From NCBI RefSeq assembly GCF_015140235.1, contig NZ_AP023321.1, positions 1,292,501 through 1,356,500 of the forward strand: a stretch of 64,000 nucleotides of DNA, in the 5' to 3' direction. Source of the DNA: Solibaculum mannosilyticum (lineage in GTDB: Bacteria > Bacillota > Clostridia > Oscillospirales > Acutalibacteraceae). Every line of letters starts with the position of its first letter. The stretch's first letter is position 1. A model generated the notes under the pieces. It saw only the letters and a program-made list of their open reading frames with translations, ran no database searches and was not told where the DNA came from. This document shows positions 4,197-14,095 of the stretch, piece after piece. A program made the translations under genes and the position numbers.

Positions 4197-7100
4197 ATGT
4201 TTATCGCTGATTTTCATATCCATTCTAAATATTCTAGGGCGACTAGCAGACAATGCGTCCCTGAATACTTGGATCTTTGGGCCAGACGCAAAGGCCTTTC
4301 TCTTATTGGCACAGGTGATTTCACCCATCCCGCTTGGAGAGAAGAACTCAAAGAGAAATTAGAGCCGGCGGAAGAAGGTCTTTTTCAATTGAAAAAGGAG
4401 TATTGTCTCCCGGAAGCATTGGCATCTGGAGGCCCGGATCCCCGTTTTATTCTTTCCAGTGAGATCAGTTCCATTTATAAAAAGAACGGTAAAGTTCGTA
4501 AAATTCACAATGTTATCCTTCTCCCTGGTCTAGAGGATGCAGAAAAACTTTCTCATCGCCTGGAGCTCATTGGGAACCTTCATTCTGACGGTCGTCCCAT
4601 CTTAGGGCTCGATAGCCGCGATCTTTTGGAGATTACATTGGAGTGTTGTCCCACCGCACTTTTTATCCCCGCTCATATCTGGACGCCTCATTTCTCCCTC
4701 TTCGGCGCCTACTCGGGATTTGACAGCATTGAAGAGTGCTTTGAAGACTTAACGCCTCATATTTTCGCATTGGAAACTGGATTATCCTCAGATCCCCCTA
4801 TGAACTGGCGGCTTTCGGCCCTGGATCGATTCACTCTGGTTTCCAATTCCGACGCCCACTCTCCTTCCAAACTCGCTCGAGAAGCGAATCTTTTTCACAC
4901 GGAGCTTTCTTATTCCGCTATTTTGAAAGCTCTAAAGGATCCTAAAAACAACGGATTCGGCGGTACCATTGAATTTTTTCCTGAGGAAGGAAAATACCAC
5001 TACGATGGACACAGGCCTTGTAAGGTATGTCTCAAGCCGTCGGAGACCATCTCTGCAAACGGCAGATGTCCGGTATGTGGCCGTCGTATTACGGTAGGAG
5101 TTCTGCATCGAGTGGAGGAGCTGGCCGACCGTCCAGAGAATTTCTTGTTGCCCGACGCCATGCCTTTTGAAAGTCTGGTACCGCTTCCTGAGGTCATCGC
5201 CGCCTCCTTGGGATGCACTCCTGCCAGCATCAAAGTGGAGCGTCAATATGAATCTATTCTCCATCAAGTGGGCTCGGAGCTTTTTATTTTGCGAGAAGCA
5301 CCCATTGAAGAGCTTCAGCATCATGCGGGACGGTGCATCGCCGAAGGAATCCGCCGTCTGCGGTCCGGCGAGGTGGATCTAAATCCCGGCTACGACGGTG
5401 AATACGGTAAAATCAAATTGTTTGACGAAAAAGAACTGGAGTGGATGGCTGGACAAATTTGCCTGTTTGGGGATGAGATCGCACCGGTTTTAAAAAAGAA
5501 GAAATCGTCGTCTAAAAAGGAATCTCTTCCCACCTCTTCCTCTGAAGAAGCAGAACAACAGGAAAACCATCCCGAACATTCTCCTGATCCCCATTATGGG
5601 CTCAATGAACAGCAATGGGAAGCCGCTTCTACATCCAGTGGGACGGTGGCTGTAGTGGCCGGCCCTGGAACTGGCAAAACACGTACCCTGGTTTACCGAA
5701 TCGCCTATTTGGTAGAGCAATGTGGGATTAAGCCTTCCCAGATCACCGCTGTGACCTTTACCAATAAGGCCGCAGGTGAAATGCGGCAACGTTTGGAGGA
5801 ACATTTTCAAAACAAACGTATGGTCCGTTCCATGACCATCGGCACCTTCCACTCTATCTGCCTTCAGATGTTATCCAAGTGGAGGGAGCATGTTTCGGTT
5901 ATCGATCAATATGAAACCTTGTCCATTGTAGAAGATCTAATTGCCCAGCAGGGAAGTAAGTTTTCCCCGAGAGATGCTTTGGAATGCATCTCCAAAATCA
6001 AAAACGGTATGATGGATCGGGAAGAATCCCCGCTTGCTGCTTCTCTCTGCGATGCTTACTGCGCTCGTATGAAGCAGGCAGACGCCTTGGATTATGACGA
6101 TATTTTATTAGAAGTGCTGGAGCATTTTAAATCTTTAGAGAAGCCTGATAAAAAGCTTCTGAAGCCTTTCACCCATCTTCTGGTCGATGAATTCCAGGAT
6201 ATCAATCTCATTCAATACGAGTTGATTCAGCTGTGGGGTCAGATGAGCGAAAGCTTATTTGTCATCGGTGATCCCGATCAGGCTATTTACGGCTTCCGGG
6301 GATCGGATTCCCACTGCTTTGAACGTTTTGAGGAGCAATATCCCGATCTTAAGTCGGTCCGCCTTACGCAAAACTATCGTTCTACCCCGGACATCTTAGG
6401 ATGCGCTCTGTCGGTTATCGCTAAAGGAGAGGATCCACAGAAAAATCATGCTTTGACGGCCATGCGTCCCGATGGTGAGAAAGTCCATCTGATGACGGCC
6501 AAAGAACCTTTGACCGAAGCCATTTTCGTAGCAAAAGAAATTGGACATCTCATGGGCGGCATCGATATGCTGGAAGCCCACAATGTTCAATCCTCCGCCC
6601 AGCGGGAGGACGGTAAACCTTTGGGATTTTCCGATATGGCTATCTTGTACCGCACCCATCGTCAAGCTGAAATTCTGGAACAATGCTTAATCAAGGAAGG
6701 CATTCCGTATACGGTAGCCGGACGAGAATCCTTTTTAGCCGATCCCGCTGTACAGCATGCTGTGGCCTTTTTCCGATTCTTGCAAAGTCCCAGTGACCTT
6801 TTGTCTTTGAGCGTCTGCCTCAAGGGATGCTCTTTGCCGAGTGTCCAGGTTCAGGCCCTCCAAGGCCTATATGAAAAAGCGGAAGAGCAGAGTGTCGATG
6901 TGTTGTGTACGCTCATTCAACAGGGAGATTTTAAGGAAGAGGCTTGGAACTTCCTGCTTCAATTATTGCAAACCTATCAGCCTATGTCGGCAAAAGGGAA
7001 ACCGGTAAAATTGCTGGAACAATGGATTTCAGACAATGGATTGGCTCAGTCCGTCCCCATGGAAAAGCTTCTTAATGTAGCCGTGATGCATTCGGACCTT

Positions 7101-7475
7101 TCTTCGTTTTTACAGAATTTGGCCTTGGGTAAGGAGGCCGACGTGGTTCGTTCAGGAAGCCGGTCCTATCGTTCCGACGCCGTTACCCTGATGACACTGC
7201 ACGGTTCCAAGGGGCTTGAATTTCCAGTGGTGTTTTTGTGCGGTGTAAACGACAAATCTATCCCGTTACAGAGCTCTCATCGTCCAAGCGATGTGGAGGA
7301 GGAACGCCGTCTTTTCTACGTGGGCATGACTCGGGCTCAGGATTGTTTGTATCTCATGACCTCCCCCGCCCCATCCATTTTCTTGCGCGATATTCCCAAG
7401 GGAAGTCTTTTGGAACAAAACGCGCTTCCGCCCAGTCCTCCCAAGGTCAAACAGTTCAGTTTATTCGATCTGTAA
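4197..7475 (+). CDS. EndoQ (PHP-type nuclease) - UvrD helicase fusion
   Basis: A 1092-aa two-part protein. Residues 1 to about 420 are endonuclease Q-like: FHIHSKYSRAT and GTGDFTHPAW are PHP metal-site motifs, and a four-Cys zinc finger (CKVC...CPVC) lies near residue 280. EndoQ nicks DNA 5' of deaminated bases and abasic sites. A Ser/Lys/Glu-rich linker (about 430-465) joins it to a superfamily 1 helicase with Walker A GPGTGKT (about 489), LVDEFQDIN (about 662), RLTQNYRSTPDIL, TLHGSKGLEFPVVF and RRLFYVGMTRAQ. The last residues, QFSLFDL, resemble the QxSLF sliding-clamp-binding motif. A combined incision and unwinding repair enzyme is inferred. Start ATG 4197 is chosen over the TTG one codon upstream. 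Similar fusions probably exist in other Clostridia. Confidence 0.9.
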   Translation: MFIADFHIHSKYSRATSRQCVPEYLDLWARRKGLSLIGTGDFTHPAWREELKEKLEPAEEGLFQLKKEYCLPEALASGGPDPRFILSSEISSIYKKNGKVRKIHNVILLPGLEDAEKLSHRLELIGNLHSDGRPILGLDSRDLLEITLECCPTALFIPAHIWTPHFSLFGAYSGFDSIEECFEDLTPHIFALETGLSSDPPMNWRLSALDRFTLVSNSDAHSPSKLAREANLFHTELSYSAILKALKDPKNNGFGGTIEFFPEEGKYHYDGHRPCKVCLKPSETISANGRCPVCGRRITVGVLHRVEELADRPENFLLPDAMPFESLVPLPEVIAASLGCTPASIKVERQYESILHQVGSELFILREAPIEELQHHAGRCIAEGIRRLRSGEVDLNPGYDGEYGKIKLFDEKELEWMAGQICLFGDEIAPVLKKKKSSSKKESLPTSSSEEAEQQENHPEHSPDPHYGLNEQQWEAASTSSGTVAVVAGPGTGKTRTLVYRIAYLVEQCGIKPSQITAVTFTNKAAGEMRQRLEEHFQNKRMVRSMTIGTFHSICLQMLSKWREHVSVIDQYETLSIVEDLIAQQGSKFSPRDALECISKIKNGMMDREESPLAASLCDAYCARMKQADALDYDDILLEVLEHFKSLEKPDKKLLKPFTHLLVDEFQDINLIQYELIQLWGQMSESLFVIGDPDQAIYGFRGSDSHCFERFEEQYPDLKSVRLTQNYRSTPDILGCALSVIAKGEDPQKNHALTAMRPDGEKVHLMTAKEPLTEAIFVAKEIGHLMGGIDMLEAHNVQSSAQREDGKPLGFSDMAILYRTHRQAEILEQCLIKEGIPYTVAGRESFLADPAVQHAVAFFRFLQSPSDLLSLSVCLKGCSLPSVQVQALQGLYEKAEEQSVDVLCTLIQQGDFKEEAWNFLLQLLQTYQPMSAKGKPVKLLEQWISDNGLAQSVPMEKLLNVAVMHSDLSSFLQNLALGKEADVVRSGSRSYRSDAVTLMTLHGSKGLEFPVVFLCGVNDKSIPLQSSHRPSDVEEERRLFYVGMTRAQDCLYLMTSPAPSIFLRDIPKGSLLEQNALPPSPPKVKQFSLFDL

Positions 7476-7601: not shown

Positions 7602-7668
7602 CTAGTTCGTGTAGCATACGGTTCGTGTGCTCTATCAGCGCCCGGGACGACGAGCGAGAAAGGTTGTG

Positions 7669-8484
7669 ATGATAGGGTTGGAAAAAAAGCTGACCTTATA
7701 CGGCTTTAACAACCTCACAAAAACACTTAGCTTTAACATTTATGATGTTTGCTATGCTAAAAGTGAGCGTGAGCAAAAGGATTACATCGCCTACATCGAC
7801 GAACAATACAATTCCGACCGTCTGACAAAGATCCTCTGTGACGTCACTGAGATGATCGGCGCCCATGTGCTCAATATCTCCAAGCAGGATTATGAGCCTC
7901 AAGGTGCCAGCGTCACTTTGCTGATCGCAGAGGAATCCATGATGTCCGGTCTTCGCCCGGAGGAATCCCAGGAAGAGGATTTGGCTATCATCAACCGGCG
8001 GGAAGCGGTAGTAGGCCATTTAGATAAAAGCCATGTGACGGTACACACTTATCCGGAGTATCATCCGGATAACGCCATCGCCACCTTCCGAGTGGACATC
8101 GACGTCGCCACCTGCGGCAAGGTCTCCCCTCTCAACGCTTTGGATTATCTCATCGGCAGCTTTGATTCGGATATTATCACCATTGATTACCGCGTCCGTG
8201 GTTTTACCCGGGATGTCAATGGCCGCAAGCTCTTTATGGATCACGGCATCGCCTCCATCCAGGATTACATCGACGACGAGACACTGCTTAAGTATGACGC
8301 GGTGGATGTCAATGTGTACCAGGCAAATCTCTTTCATACAAAAATGTTAATCAAGGAGTTAAAGCTCCAGAATTACTTATTTAATACCGATATTTATGAA
8401 TTGCCGCCGCGGCAGAGGCTGGATATTACCAACAGTCTCCGTCGTGAGATGATCGAGATCTTCAGCGGCGTCAATATCTATTGA
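7669..8484 (+). CDS. speD: S-adenosylmethionine decarboxylase proenzyme (class 1a)
   Basis: Pyruvoyl enzyme that makes decarboxylated AdoMet, the aminopropyl donor for spermidine synthesis. The 271-aa protein is the long E. coli-type class, not the ~125-aa class common in other Firmicutes. The self-cleavage site is [12 protein letters not shown] with the pyruvoyl-forming Ser about residue 121; E. coli cuts near residue 112. A conserved [14 protein letters not shown] stretch carries the catalytic Cys region. I start at ATG 7669; the frame is open 14 codons upstream from a GTG but that segment (RPGRRARK) does not look native. It heads a tightly packed run of polyamine genes. Confidence 0.95.
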
Positions 8485-8498
8485 AAAGGGTGGTTGAT

Positions 8499-9953
8499 AT
8501 GAAAATGCACCTTTTTCAAGACAGGGCTCCTCTGCGGGATGCCCTATTGCAATACAAGCAAAACCGCATCCTTCCCTTTGACGTCCCTGGCCACAAGCAG
8601 GGTAAAGGGAATCCTCGGCTGCGGGAATTTTTGGGTGAAAAATGCTTAGCGGTGGACGTCAATTCCATGAAGCCGCTGGATAATTTGAGTCATCCCGTTT
8701 CAGTTATCAAGGAGGCGGAGGAGCTGGCAGCCGATGCGTTCGGCGCGGACCACGCCTTTTTTATTGTCAATGGAACAACCGCAGCCGTCCAGGCCATGGT
8801 CATGACGGCCTGTAAACGGGGGGATAAGATCATCATGCCACGCAACGTCCACATCAGCGCCATCAACTCCCTGATTTTGTGCGGCGCTGTGCCGGTGTAT
8901 GTCAATCCCGGCGTCAATTCCAAGCTGGGTATCCCACTGGGCATGACGGTGGAAGATGTAAAAAAGGCCATTGAGAAAAATCCAAACGCCAAGGCGGTGT
9001 TTGTCAACAACCCCACCTATTACGGCATCTGTTCGGATCTGAAAGCCATCGTCAAACTGGCCCATGCCCACGGTATGATGGTATTGGTGGACGAGGCTCA
9101 CGGCACCCATTTCTATTTCGGAGAAGGATTGCCGCCTTCGGCTATGTCCTGCGGCGCCGATATGGCGGCTGTCAGCCTCCATAAGACGGGAGGTTCTCTC
9201 ACTCAAAGCTCCCTCCTGCTCATTCGGAATGGATTAAATGTCGGTTATGTCCGTCAGATCCTAAGCCTGACCCAGACTACCAGCGCCTCCTATTTGCTTT
9301 TGTCGTCGCTGGACATCAGCCGACGCAACCTGGCTTTGCACGGCAAAGAGATTTTTGCACGTGTCCTGGACCTGGTGGAATACGCCCGTGGAGAAATCAA
9401 TCTAATCGGTGGCTATTATGCTTACGGCAAGGAGATGGAGGGACATCCGGCCGTCCACGCCTTTGACCGAACCAAGCTCTCGGTATTCACACGCGGCATC
9501 GGCTTGGCCGGCATTGAGATTTACGACATGCTGCGGGACGACTACGGCATCCAGATCGAATTCGGCGATATCGGGAACATCTTGGCTATCGTCTCGGTGG
9601 GAGACAACGAATTGGCGGTGGAACGGCTTGTGTCGGCCCTCTATGAGATCCGCCGTCTCAAATCCAAGGATCCTACCGGCATGTTTGACCATGAGTACAT
9701 CACTCCCAGGGTGGAGATGTCTCCCCAAGAGGCCTTTTACGCTAATAAGGTCTCCCTCCCCCTGCGTCAGAGCATCGGCTTTCTGTGCGGTGAATTCGTC
9801 ATGTGTTACCCTCCCGGCATCCCTATTTTGGCTCCCGGCGAACGCATTACCCGGGAAATTATCGACTACACCATCTATGCCATGGAGAAGGGCTGTCTTT
9901 TGACCGGTATGCAGGATATCTCTGTGGAAACCATTAAAGTCGTGGAGGGATAA
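8499..9953 (+). CDS. speA: PLP-dependent arginine decarboxylase (Orn/Lys/Arg family, fold I)
   Basis: A 484-aa aspartate-aminotransferase-fold decarboxylase. DVPGHKQGKGNP marks the N-terminus of the family, VDEAHGTHFYF holds the PLP-contacting Asp, and SLHKTGGSLTQSS holds the Schiff-base Lys. Length matches the short Gram-positive form without an N-terminal wing domain. Lysine and arginine decarboxylases of this family are hard to tell apart; arginine is favoured because an agmatinase gene lies three genes on. The start at ATG 8499 follows GGGTGG; speD ends 14 bp upstream. The product agmatine feeds SpeB. Confidence 0.9.
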   Translation: MKMHLFQDRAPLRDALLQYKQNRILPFDVPGHKQGKGNPRLREFLGEKCLAVDVNSMKPLDNLSHPVSVIKEAEELAADAFGADHAFFIVNGTTAAVQAMVMTACKRGDKIIMPRNVHISAINSLILCGAVPVYVNPGVNSKLGIPLGMTVEDVKKAIEKNPNAKAVFVNNPTYYGICSDLKAIVKLAHAHGMMVLVDEAHGTHFYFGEGLPPSAMSCGADMAAVSLHKTGGSLTQSSLLLIRNGLNVGYVRQILSLTQTTSASYLLLSSLDISRRNLALHGKEIFARVLDLVEYARGEINLIGGYYAYGKEMEGHPAVHAFDRTKLSVFTRGIGLAGIEIYDMLRDDYGIQIEFGDIGNILAIVSVGDNELAVERLVSALYEIRRLKSKDPTGMFDHEYITPRVEMSPQEAFYANKVSLPLRQSIGFLCGEFVMCYPPGIPILAPGERITREIIDYTIYAMEKGCLLTGMQDISVETIKVVEG

Positions 9954-9956
9954 GGG

Positions 9957-10817
9957 TTGGAATTGTGGTTTACCGAACATCATACCAAAAACGTCCGCCT
10001 TTCCATCAAGGTGGATAAACAGCTTTTTACCAAACAAAGCTCTTTTCAGCGCATTGATATTTTTGAATCCAGGGAGTTTGGTCGCTTTCTCACCTTGGAC
10101 GGTTACATGATGCTGACCGAAAAGGATGAATTCATCTATCATGAGATGATTGTACATGTCCCTATGGCCTCCAACCCGGATATTAAGAAGGTGCTGGTCA
10201 TCGGGGCCGGGGACGGCGGCGCCATCCGGGAGCTTTGCAAATATCCGGCGGTGGAGCATATCGATATGGTGGAGATCGACAAGGACGTGGTGGACGCTTG
10301 TCGGGATTATCTCCCCAGTGTGGCCTGCAAGCTGGACGACCCTAGAGTCCACATCACTTACGAGGACGGATTGCGATTTGTCCGCCGCAAAGAGGATGAA
10401 TACGATCTCATCATAGTGGATTCCACCGATCCTTTTGGTCCCGGCGAAGGACTTTTTACTAAGGAATTCTATGGCAATTGCTATAAGGCCCTGACGGCCA
10501 ACGGTATCCTGGTCAATCAGCACGAATCTCCCTTTTATCCAGACGATGCCCGTGCCATGCAACGGGCCCACTACCGTATTCGGGAATGCTTTCCGTTGAG
10601 CCGGGTGTATCAGGCTCATATTCCCACCTATCCATCGGGACATTGGTTGTTTGGTTTTGCATCCAAGGGTATTGATCCCTTAAAAGCCAATCTCTCTCAG
10701 TGGGAAAAACTAGAACTTACCACCCGGTATTACAATACTGATATCCACAAAGGTAGCTTCGCGCTGCCGACCTATGTGAAAGATCTGTTAGGTGATGAAA
10801 ATGAATCCCAATATTGA
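9957..10817 (+). CDS. speE: Spermidine synthase (polyamine aminopropyltransferase)
   Basis: Transfers the aminopropyl group of decarboxylated AdoMet to putrescine. The 286 aa match the E. coli length (288). Motifs: the nucleotide-binding VLVIGAGDGGAIRE (about 79-92), acidic VEIDKDVV, and the catalytic region IIVDSTDPFGPGEGLF. The start is TTG 9957, placed three bases after the speA stop, with GGAGGG overlapping the end of speA. The end overlaps the start of speB by 17 bp, indicating translational coupling. Substrate choice (putrescine versus other diamines) cannot be read directly. Confidence 0.95.
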   Translation: MELWFTEHHTKNVRLSIKVDKQLFTKQSSFQRIDIFESREFGRFLTLDGYMMLTEKDEFIYHEMIVHVPMASNPDIKKVLVIGAGDGGAIRELCKYPAVEHIDMVEIDKDVVDACRDYLPSVACKLDDPRVHITYEDGLRFVRRKEDEYDLIIVDSTDPFGPGEGLFTKEFYGNCYKALTANGILVNQHESPFYPDDARAMQRAHYRIRECFPLSRVYQAHIPTYPSGHWLFGFASKGIDPLKANLSQWEKLELTTRYYNTDIHKGSFALPTYVKDLLGDENESQY

Positions 10818-11664
10818 AACCTTTATCGGCTGTGACGCGCCTTATGACGAGGCCGAAATCGTGTTATTCGGCGCGCCCTATGATTCTACCACATCTTTTC
10901 GTCCCGGAACCCGGTTCGGATGCAAAGCCATTCGCAGCGAATCCTTTGGTCTAGAGACCTACAGTCCCTACCAGGACCGGGATTTAACCGATATCTCGGT
11001 GTTCGACGCCGGGGACTTGGAACTGGTATTCGGCAATTCTCCCAGGGCTTTGGATCAGATCCAGGAGATGACGGCTCAGATCTTGGAGGATGGTAAAATC
11101 CCCTGTATGGTGGGAGGCGAACATCTGGTGACGCTGGGCGCTTTTCGGGCGGTACAAAAAAAATATCCAGACGTCCACATCATCCACTTTGACGCTCACG
11201 CCGATCTGCGGGAGGACTATTTGGGCGAACGCCTCTCCCACGCGTCGGTGCTGCGCCGGTGTTGGGAACTGGTGGGCGACGGACGCATCTATCAGTTCGG
11301 CATCCGTTCGGGCGACCGGGAGGAATTCAACTGGGGAAAGAATCACGTCTTTACCAATAAGTTCGACTTCCGCTGGTTGGACGACATCATTGTGGGACTA
11401 GGGGACAAGCCGGTGTACTTTACGCTGGACTTGGATGTATTGGATCCTTCGGTCTTCCCTGGGACAGGCACTCCCGAAGCCGGCGGCGTCACATTCCTGC
11501 AACTGCTGGAGGCTGTCCGGAAATTGGAAAACCTGCATATCGTCGGGTTCGACGTCAACGAGCTTTCCCCTATGTACGATCAAAGCGGCGTATCCACTGC
11601 GGTGGCGGGTAAGATCATCCGGGAACTGCTCCTCCTCTTTGCCAAGAAGAGAAGGGATTCGTAA
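10801..11664 (+). CDS. speB: Agmatinase (ureohydrolase)
   Basis: Hydrolyses agmatine to putrescine and urea. The 287-aa protein has the manganese-site motifs in order: GGEHLVTLG, HFDAHADLRE, and FTLDLDVLDPSVFPGTGTPE. These are the full set of His/Asp metal ligands of arginase-family enzymes. The start ATG 10801 lies inside the end of speE after TTAGGTGA; a GTG and ATG two to three codons earlier are possible. An intrinsic terminator follows 15 bp after the stop, so some transcripts end here. Confidence 0.95.
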   Translation: MNPNIETFIGCDAPYDEAEIVLFGAPYDSTTSFRPGTRFGCKAIRSESFGLETYSPYQDRDLTDISVFDAGDLELVFGNSPRALDQIQEMTAQILEDGKIPCMVGGEHLVTLGAFRAVQKKYPDVHIIHFDAHADLREDYLGERLSHASVLRRCWELVGDGRIYQFGIRSGDREEFNWGKNHVFTNKFDFRWLDDIIVGLGDKPVYFTLDLDVLDPSVFPGTGTPEAGGVTFLQLLEAVRKLENLHIVGFDVNELSPMYDQSGVSTAVAGKIIRELLLLFAKKRRDS

Positions 11665-11678
11665 TTTTTTGTTTCTCA

Positions 11679-11705
11679 GAAGGCAGGGGGCTGCCTTCTT
11701 TTTTC
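11679..11705 (+). terminator. Terminator inside the polyamine cluster
   Basis: AGAAGGCAG (11679-11687) pairs with CTGCCTTCT (11691-11699) and is followed by six T. It lies between speB and the carboxyspermidine dehydrogenase gene, so the last two genes are either attenuated or separately promoted. Confidence 0.88.
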
Positions 11706-11751
11706 GATCATACGATCACATACAGGAATAAAATATTTGGAGGGATTGAAC

Positions 11752-12951
11752 GTGGGAAAAGTTTTAATCATCGGCGCCGGCGGCGTCGCTAGTGTCGCTG
11801 TCCACAAATGCTGTCAGTATCCGGAGGTGTTTGAGGAGATCTGCATCGCCAGCCGCACCCTCTCCAAGTGCGACGCCCTCAAGCAAAAGCTGGACGGCGG
11901 TAAAACCAAGATCCAAACCGCCCAGGTAGATGCCGACAATACCGACGAAGTGGTTGCTCTCATTGAGAAGTTCAAACCGGACGTGGTGCTCAATCTGGCC
12001 CTGCCCTACCAGGATCTGACCATTATGGATGCCTGTCTTGCCACCGGCGTCCATTACGTGGACACCGCCAACTACGAGCCCAAGGATGTGGCAAAATTTG
12101 AATACAAGTGGCAATGGGCCTATCGGGAACGCTTTGAGAAAGCCGGTCTCATCGCCCTGCTGGGTAGTGGATTTGATCCCGGCGTCACCGGTGTGTTTTC
12201 GGCCTACGCTCAGAAGCATCACTTTGACGAGATCCGTCAGATCGATATCGTGGACGCCAACGCCGGTGATCACGGTCTCCCCTTTGCCACCAACTTTAAT
12301 CCCGAGATCAACATCCGTGAGGTCAGCGCCAAGGGCAGCTATTTTGAAAACGGCAAGTTTATTGAGACCGATCCCATGTCCATTAAACGGGTGTACAATC
12401 TCCCTGAAATCGGCCCCAAGGATATCTACCTGCTCCACCACGAGGAAATGGAATCATTGGCTCTCAACATCAAGGGCATTCAGAAGATCCGTTTCTGGAT
12501 GACATTCTCTCAGAGCTATCTCACCCATCTGAAGGTATTGGAAGATGTGGGTATGACCTCCATTGAACCCATTCTGTTTGAAGGCAGGGAGATCATCCCC
12601 CTCCAGTTCCTCAAGGCGGTATTGCCCGATCCCGCCACTCTGGCTCCCCGTACCAAAGGTAAAACCAACATCGGCTGCATCTTCCAGGGCGTCAAGGACG
12701 GCAAAGAAAAGACCTATTATCTCTACAACGTCTGCGATCATCAGGCATGCTACCGTGAGGTAGGCAGTCAGGCCATTTCCTACACCACCGGCGTCCCCGC
12801 TATGATCGGCACCGCCATGATCCTCACCGGTAAGTGGAATACCCCAGGCGTCCACAACATCGAGGAATTCGATCCCGATCCCTTTATGGACATGCTCAAT
12901 CGTTTTGGTCTGCCGTGGCAGGAGAGCTTCCAGCCGGAGCTCATCGACTGA
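11752..12951 (+). CDS. Carboxynorspermidine/carboxyspermidine dehydrogenase
   Basis: A saccharopine-dehydrogenase-like enzyme of 399 aa that reductively condenses aspartate beta-semialdehyde with putrescine (or diaminopropane) to carboxyspermidine (or carboxynorspermidine), using NADPH. The N-terminal Rossmann motif VLIIGAGGVASVAVHKC and the stretches LPYQDLTIMDACLATGVHYVD and LLGSGFDPGVTGVF are diagnostic of the CASDH group. The start is GTG 11752, preceded by TTGGAGG. It is followed after 10 bp by nspC, the next enzyme of the route. With putrescine made by SpeA/SpeB next door, carboxyspermidine is the likely product. Confidence 0.92.
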   Translation: MGKVLIIGAGGVASVAVHKCCQYPEVFEEICIASRTLSKCDALKQKLDGGKTKIQTAQVDADNTDEVVALIEKFKPDVVLNLALPYQDLTIMDACLATGVHYVDTANYEPKDVAKFEYKWQWAYRERFEKAGLIALLGSGFDPGVTGVFSAYAQKHHFDEIRQIDIVDANAGDHGLPFATNFNPEINIREVSAKGSYFENGKFIETDPMSIKRVYNLPEIGPKDIYLLHHEEMESLALNIKGIQKIRFWMTFSQSYLTHLKVLEDVGMTSIEPILFEGREIIPLQFLKAVLPDPATLAPRTKGKTNIGCIFQGVKDGKEKTYYLYNVCDHQACYREVGSQAISYTTGVPAMIGTAMILTGKWNTPGVHNIEEFDPDPFMDMLNRFGLPWQESFQPELID

Positions 12952-12961
12952 GGGCCGCGGG

Positions 12962-14095
12962 ATGAATTGTTTTGATCAAGTGCCGACCCCGTCCTTTGTG
13001 GTGGATGAAGGGCTGTTGAAACGGAATCTGGAGCTTTTACAGTCTATCCAGCAGCGCACCGGATGCAAGATCCTGTTGGCCCAAAAGGCCTTTTCCATGT
13101 ATCGCGTTTATCCCTTGATAGGGCGCTATTTGGCTGGAACTACAGCAAGTTCCCTCTTCGAGGCCAGGCTCGGCCGGGAGGAAATGGGAGGAGAAGTGCA
13201 CATCTATTCCCCGGCCTATCGAGAGGACGAGATGGATCAAATCGCCTCCATCTGCGACCATATTGTCTTTAACTCCCCCAGCCAATGGATGCGCTTCCGA
13301 AATCAAATTCAGGCATCGGGACGCAGTATTTCCTGCGGCATCCGGATTAACCCTGAATATTCGGAGATTGAAACCGATCTCTATAACCCCTGTTTCACCG
13401 GTTCTCGTATGGGTACTACCTTAGCCCATTTGGATCCCGCCCAAATGGAGGGCATCGAGGGCCTTCATTTCCACACCATGTGCGAACAAAATTCCGATAC
13501 CCTAGCCCGTACCATCCAAGTGGTGGATGAAAAATTCGGTCATCTTCTCCAACACATGAAATGGATCAATTTTGGCGGCGGGCATCATATCACTCGCTCG
13601 GACTACGATGTGGAATGCCTTATCCGATCCATCACCTTTATGCAGGAAAAATACGGTCTTCAAGTCTACTTAGAGCCGGGCGAAGGCGTGGTGCTCAACA
13701 CCGGCTTTTTGGTGACGTCGGTGCTGGATACCCTTCAGAACGGCATGGATCTGGCCATCGTGGATACTTCCGCTGCCTGCCACATGCCCGACGTTTTGGA
13801 GATGCCCTATCGTCCCCCCCTGCTGGGATCGGGTGATCCGGATGAATATCCTTACACCTATCGTTTGGGCGGTCCCACCTGTCTGGCCGGCGACATCATT
13901 GGAGACTACTCCTTCCCCCATCCCCTAAAGCCGGGAGATCGTTTGGTGTTCGGCGATATGGCTCTCTACACCATGGTCAAGACCAACACCTTTAACGGCG
14001 TGAACCTTCCCTCTATTGTACTTCAGCACGAGGATGGAAGCTTTGAAATCGTCAAACAGTTTGGATATGAGGATTTTAAATCCCGCTTATCCTAA
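12962..14095 (+). CDS. nspC: Carboxynorspermidine/carboxyspermidine decarboxylase
   Basis: PLP enzyme of the alanine-racemase fold (fold III), 377 aa, which decarboxylates carboxyspermidine to spermidine. Visible family features are the N-terminal TPSFVVDEGLL, the PLP Lys in ILLAQKAFSM (about residue 42), GLHFHTMCEQN, NFGGGHHITR and LEPGEGVV. The start ATG 12962 follows GAGGGCCGCGGG. It is the last gene of the cluster, ending 14 bp before a strong terminator. Together with the preceding gene it forms a complete AdoMet-independent branch to spermidine. Confidence 0.94.
   Translation: MNCFDQVPTPSFVVDEGLLKRNLELLQSIQQRTGCKILLAQKAFSMYRVYPLIGRYLAGTTASSLFEARLGREEMGGEVHIYSPAYREDEMDQIASICDHIVFNSPSQWMRFRNQIQASGRSISCGIRINPEYSEIETDLYNPCFTGSRMGTTLAHLDPAQMEGIEGLHFHTMCEQNSDTLARTIQVVDEKFGHLLQHMKWINFGGGHHITRSDYDVECLIRSITFMQEKYGLQVYLEPGEGVVLNTGFLVTSVLDTLQNGMDLAIVDTSAACHMPDVLEMPYRPPLLGSGDPDEYPYTYRLGGPTCLAGDIIGDYSFPHPLKPGDRLVFGDMALYTMVKTNTFNGVNLPSIVLQHEDGSFEIVKQFGYEDFKSRLS

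Follow-up and report, generated by a model that had tools for sequence, protein, structure and literature searches.

A candidate EndoQ–UvrD fusion for repair of deaminated DNA, with two conserved clamp-binding-like motifs, in Clostridia

Introduction

Could incision of deaminated DNA, removal of the cut strand and contact with the sliding clamp be combined in a single bacterial protein? This question is raised by a gene of Solibaculum mannosilyticum, located within a stretch of 64,000 nucleotides (the window; positions 1,292,501 to 1,356,500 of contig NZ_AP023321.1), which an initial annotation had read as an EndoQ domain fused to a full UvrD helicase. We found no description of such an EndoQ–UvrD (PHP–UvrD) fusion in the open-access full-text literature, a provisional result for a search that covered papers rather than database annotations. 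The component parts are of known kinds, and what provisionally appears to be new is their combination and the presence of two clamp-binding-like motifs.

Domain architecture

Profile and structure matches upheld both the coordinates of the gene and the identity of its two halves. In the 1092-residue protein, an EndoQ domain is followed by a disordered linker, a complete UvrD/PcrA-type SF1A helicase and the C-terminal sequence QFSLFDL. Window coordinates are as follows:

4197–7475, forward strand: EndoQ–UvrD fusion gene, 1092 aa; ATG at 4197, stop codon (7473–7475) included
4197–5429, forward strand: EndoQ domain, residues 1–411 (TIGR00375, PfuEndoQ 5zb8, AF2 model)
5472–5594, forward strand: disordered linker, residues 426–466, unconserved (0.98 of 4.32 bits)
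5598–7385, forward strand: UvrD/PcrA-type SF1A helicase, residues 468–1063 (PF00580, UvrD_C, PcrA/UvrD structures)

The same architecture was found in many independent genomes, which rules out an assembly or frame artefact. At two loci (L081 and L157), a single in-frame stop in the linker parts EndoQ from the helicase, reflecting either a true gene split or a sequencing error. The AlphaFold model, built with 44 homologues in the alignment, has a mean pLDDT of 84 and a pTM of 0.59, at which the placement of the domains relative to each other is unreliable. Residues 420–463 and 1082–1088 have a pLDDT below 50, indicating that the linker and the C-terminus are disordered.

The EndoQ half

Residues 4–411 match PfuEndoQ (5zb8) with E=2.1e-48, and the corresponding part of the model superimposes on this structure with a TM score of 0.83 (rmsd 3.6), consistent with an EndoQ fold. 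The match to TIGR00375 (E=1.8e-48, 165.8 bits) lies under the curated cut-off of that model (326.6 bits), which is exceeded in just 2 of the 207 host-phylum genomes with a TIGR00375 match. In the Pfu enzyme, E76, H84 and H139 are zinc ligands, and G169 and S171 are pocket residues that exclude T and A (PMC8307549). The equivalent residues and the cysteines of the zinc-binding domain are located as follows:

4461–4463, forward strand: E89, equivalent of zinc ligand Pfu E76 (alignment; Pfu role from PMC8307549)
4506–4508, forward strand: H104, equivalent of zinc ligand Pfu H84 (alignment; Pfu role from PMC8307549)
4674–4676, forward strand: H160, equivalent of Pfu H139, zinc ligand and base-pocket wall (alignment; PMC8307549)
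4779–4787, forward strand: G195-L196-S197, equivalent of Pfu G169-L170-S171, the pocket excluding T and A (alignment; PMC8307549)
5019–5078, forward strand: C275xxC278...C291xxC294, cysteines of the EndoQ zinc-binding domain; C278 is replaced in 6 of 17 homologues

Alignment showed that E89, H104, H160, G195 and S197 are invariant across 17 fusions. Loss of conserved EndoQ residues, which the initial annotation had named as one observation that would count against it, was thus not seen, since the catalytic and pocket residues are intact. The fusions L054, L056, L060, L062 and L063 carry R, S or A at the position of C278, the second cysteine of the first zinc-finger CxxC. Judged from these residues and the predicted fold, the protein likely nicks deaminated DNA.

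The EndoQ half shares its fold, domain length and catalytic and base-pocket residues with the archaeal enzymes PfuEndoQ and TkoEndoQ (TIGR00375), in which a clamp-type motif, the PIP box of Thermococcales (PMC4858679), likewise follows the catalytic domain. However, the archaeal proteins are only about 30% identical to the fusion, have no fused helicase and carry one motif, which serves PCNA rather than the beta clamp. Bacillus-type EndoQ proteins (B. pumilus, B. subtilis) also belong to the TIGR00375 family, and nicking at deaminated bases has been shown for the B. pumilus enzyme (Shiraishi 2017, cited in PMC6202378). In contrast to the fusions, they form a separate deep clade (100% SH-aLRT), contain HIHIGR instead of HIHSKYSR, lack a helicase and terminate in GGGGxYG; none of the 30 tails read contains a clamp motif.

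The helicase half

The second half matches PF00580 (E=3.6e-67), UvrD_C (E=4e-45) and the PcrA structure 1pjr (E=1.4e-73), and its model resembles DNA-bound UvrD with a TM score of about 0.77. As in PcrA, UvrD and Rep, all SF1A motifs (Q, I, Ia, II, III, IV, V and VI) are there, with many positions invariant in an alignment of 44 rows. Three of its features are referred to below or distinguish the family:

5661–5681, forward strand: helicase motif I (Walker A), GPGTGKT (motif reading)
6186–6200, forward strand: helicase motif II (Walker B), DEFQD (motif reading)
6555–6620, forward strand: family-specific GGxxML loop and variable insertion, residues 787–808; G787, G788 and M791 are invariant in 44 rows

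The GGxxML loop occurs in every fusion printed in the alignment and is absent from the single unfused UvrD aligned there. The fused helicase is not a PcrA equivalog: it scores 369.9 bits against TIGR01073, whose curated cut-off is 911.2. Compared with PcrA, UvrD and Rep, it is shorter, contains the GGxxML insertion, ends in a clamp motif and lacks the C-terminal Tudor-like domain of PcrA, whereas the PcrA encoded by a separate gene of the host has such a C-terminus and no clamp motif. Motors of the UvrD family translocate in the 3'→5' direction.

Two conserved clamp-binding-like motifs

The initial annotation had likened QFSLFDL to a clamp-binding peptide. Conservation bore this out and revealed a second motif, which had been missed:

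7452–7472, forward strand: C-terminal clamp-binding-like motif QFSLFDL, residues 1086–1092 (conservation; disordered in the model)
5451–5471, forward strand: internal clamp-binding-like motif GQICLFG, residues 419–425 (conservation; at the edge of the disordered linker)

The C-terminal motif, scored as Q..[LMFI][FLM] among the final 22 residues, is present in 66 of 67 complete fusions, a set whose selection pattern required the first zinc-finger CxxC, compared with 4.5 on average and at most 12 of 67 for shuffled tails, which rules out chance. Elsewhere in the same proteins, the pattern fits 3% of windows. Its main forms are QLSLF, QMSLF or QLSFF, usually ending 0–4 residues before the stop. 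In the 44-row alignment, Q1086 is invariant (44/44) and F1090 is F in 43/44, with most of the preceding tail poorly conserved. Nine fusions without the first CxxC, whose tails were read by eye, all have C-terminal motifs. The internal motif fits a relaxed pattern in 64 and a strict one in 52 of the same 67 fusions (shuffled mean 5.6, maximum 13); G419 and Q420 are invariant in 44/44 rows, and its fifth position is F in 32/44. Unfused members of the same EndoQ subfamily whose ends were read stop just ahead of it.

Both motifs lie in segments predicted to be disordered and agree with the bacterial clamp consensus QL[S/D]LF, more generally QxxLF (PMC12309361), or with the alternative Q-phi-x-[L/M][F/L] (PMC13254535). 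A C-terminal position of the clamp motif is also known from B. subtilis PolC (PMC12309361), and in archaea a C-terminal motif of EndoQ mediates both binding and stimulation by the clamp, PCNA (PMC4858679). The latter paper also reports clamp motifs of bacterial EndoQ homologues in a supplementary figure. A QxxLF match may bind weakly, as in DnaE, with a KD of about 78 uM (PMC12309361). Going by their sequences, the motifs of the fusion likely bind DnaN.

Distribution and history

A scan of genome contigs yielded at least 576 confirmed relatives. The best 80 of these come nearly all from Clostridia and other Bacillota, including Christensenella, Lachnospiraceae, Oscillospiraceae, Moorella, Propionispora and Dethiobacter. 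One of the same 80 is a candidate fusion on a Treponema MAG contig (L134; 64% identity in EndoQ), which may represent horizontal transfer or a mis-binned contig. Within the host family, 5 of the 25 genomes searched, the host included, contain the fusion. The description of the EndoQ domain as typical of archaeal repair does not fit the host phylum, in which TIGR00375 of any type occurs in 207 of 398 genomes and the fusion-type EndoQ model matches 64 of 398 at E <= 1e-40, a few of them weakly and mostly in ORFs of about 1000–1360 aa.

The phylogeny that the initial annotation had called for supports an ancient origin. The helicases of the fusions group in one clade, distinct from the sampled PcrA-type paralogues (SH-aLRT 100), which supports a single fusion event. 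The fusion is of old origin and common across Clostridia. On the EndoQ tree, the fused state appears old, and scattered unfused members inside it look like repeated losses of the helicase; this tree includes fusions without the first zinc-finger CxxC, some of which are omitted from the tree with the deep Bacillus-type clade. Several lineages dropped the helicase and kept EndoQ, so EndoQ function does not strictly depend on the helicase. The unfused subfamily proteins whose ends were read have no clamp motif and no helicase nearby. In the genomes of L154 and L155, a fused copy and an unfused EndoQ from the same subfamily lie no more than about 10 kb apart.

Host genome and neighbourhood

The host genome encodes UDG, the separate PcrA, DnaN (near base 2037) and a 5'-nuclease domain in an 860-aa ORF of the size of Pol I. 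Besides the normal dnaN, it contains another gene that resembles DnaN more weakly, in a frame of 400 aa (G000:C1:1790878-1791237). The alternative route for uracil and hypoxanthine that had been proposed for the fusion holds up in part. Uracil has another route, since UDG is encoded in the same genome, and a replacement for the uracil glycosylase is thereby ruled out. For hypoxanthine, a family search found no EndoV in the host. EndoV is present in 7 of 398 host-phylum genomes, and EndoQ in 0 of these 7 (hypergeometric p=0.0055, uncorrected for kinship among the seven genomes, which represent 5 families); B. subtilis, the control, has both. These counts fit a role of EndoQ in covering hypoxanthine where EndoV is absent.

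No gene recurs beside the fusion across about 90 loci, apart from scattered small groups. An operon partner was likewise sought, and none is conserved: uvrB lies just upstream in Moorella stamsii, and its family occurs in at most 3 loci. Downstream of the fusion, the window contains what we take to be a run of polyamine genes (7627–14095), presumably encoding proteins resembling SAM decarboxylase, lysine/ornithine/arginine decarboxylase and agmatinase, as well as spermidine synthase and carboxynorspermidine dehydrogenase and decarboxylase. Among other fusion loci, this run is found only in a same-genus genome (L067) and partly at L109.

Proposed mechanism

Taken as a whole, the sequence and the model make it probable that the fusion acts as a clamp-tethered, self-contained front end of excision repair for deaminated bases. 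The protein would dock on the beta clamp by one of its QxxLF-type motifs or by both. The EndoQ domain, as its residues and fold suggest, would flip out uracil, hypoxanthine, xanthine or an AP site and cut the backbone immediately 5' of it, the position established for PfuEndoQ and the Bacillus pumilus homologue. The UvrD-type motor could then load at the nick on the uncut strand and move 3'→5' towards and past the lesion, peeling off the lesion-bearing 5' end as a flap; such peeling is plausible because this is exactly the direction that a 3'→5' motor takes along the uncut strand. Flap trimming and gap filling would fall to Pol I, and sealing to ligase. Least certain is the part played by having a motif beside each catalytic domain, which may let the protein span the two pockets of the dimeric clamp or pass the DNA from nuclease to helicase. 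The initial proposal of incision, strand removal and clamp contact in one polypeptide is thus favoured by the domains, motifs and intact residues, with two clamp-like motifs in place of one.

The order of steps recalls mismatch repair, in which a clamp-tethered nick by MutL is followed by UvrD-type strand removal. The fusion would work in a similar way but unites nuclease and helicase in one polypeptide, and EndoQ would nick at the lesion itself rather than at a distance. The MutL endonuclease, too, carries a clamp motif (PMC9690074).

The beta clamp is dimeric, and its two pockets are identical (PMC12309361, PMC13254535). We tentatively propose, as a possibility with somewhat less than an even chance, that the two motifs fill both pockets of one dimer, so that the ring would hold EndoQ and UvrD in a fixed order and nicking and peeling would proceed without dissociation.

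Alternative explanations

An alternative to part of this explanation is that in fusions the internal GQxxLF serves as a structural cap at the end of the EndoQ domain and that the C-terminal motif alone binds the clamp. The glycine preceding the glutamine in 44/44 rows and a fifth position looser than that of the C-terminal motif (F in 32/44 vs 43/44) would suit a cap. However, the motif sits at the start of the disordered segment 420–463, its letters match the clamp consensus, and it is dispensable for the EndoQ fold, since unfused subfamily relatives and Bacillus-type EndoQ terminate before it. We consider a cap unlikely; as it contests a single element of the preferred explanation, its probability is not additive with those of the readings of the whole protein. 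One of these holds that the helicase serves no excision but strips RNA polymerase or other blocks, or unwinds DNA for EndoQ scanning of single strands near forks, leaving Pol I alone to remove the lesion. EndoQ also cuts single-stranded DNA (PMC8307549), the clamp motifs suggest localisation at forks, loss of the helicase is tolerated, and relatives in the PcrA/UvrD group remove roadblocks and associate with RNA polymerase (PMC8318588). Yet the fused helicase lacks the Tudor-like C-terminus, which governs RNA polymerase binding in UvrD (PMC7585439), and a full PcrA is encoded separately in the genome. Overall, this role seems rather improbable.

The pairing of a nuclease with a UvrD-like helicase is also found in Gabija (GajAB) and other defence systems, which raises the question of whether the fusion acts against phages by attacking foreign DNA rich in uracil or hypoxanthine, with its helicase unwinding the nicked product. 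The helicase half indeed matches GajB profiles (E=2.8e-74), and a review suggests that bacterial EndoQ may also act against viruses (PMC8307549). The GajB matches (PADLOC), however, reflect generic UvrD similarity, and PcrA matches score higher. Unlike the PHP/EndoQ domain of the fusion, GajA is an OLD-type ATPase/nuclease, and no GajA beside GajB and no defence context was found, nor any recurring partner or defence neighbourhood in the roughly 90 loci. Searches found no copies in viral contigs, phages or plasmids, and the distribution is broad, with one helicase clade. The presence of two conserved clamp motifs suggests a role in replicating or repairing the chromosome. We therefore rejected the fusion as a defence system, a reading that we regard as very improbable.

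Implications

Most work on EndoQ repair concerns archaea, in which the steps after the nick are unclear. For bacteria, this natural and widely conserved fusion would identify both what acts next, a UvrD-type 3'→5' motor, and the platform, the sliding clamp, and it allows the order of repair steps to be tested with one purified protein. The fusion also suggests how many Clostridia, gut species included, handle hypoxanthine without EndoV. If it indeed occupies both pockets of the clamp as a single repair machine, it would be the main route of hypoxanthine repair in those Clostridia that lack EndoV.
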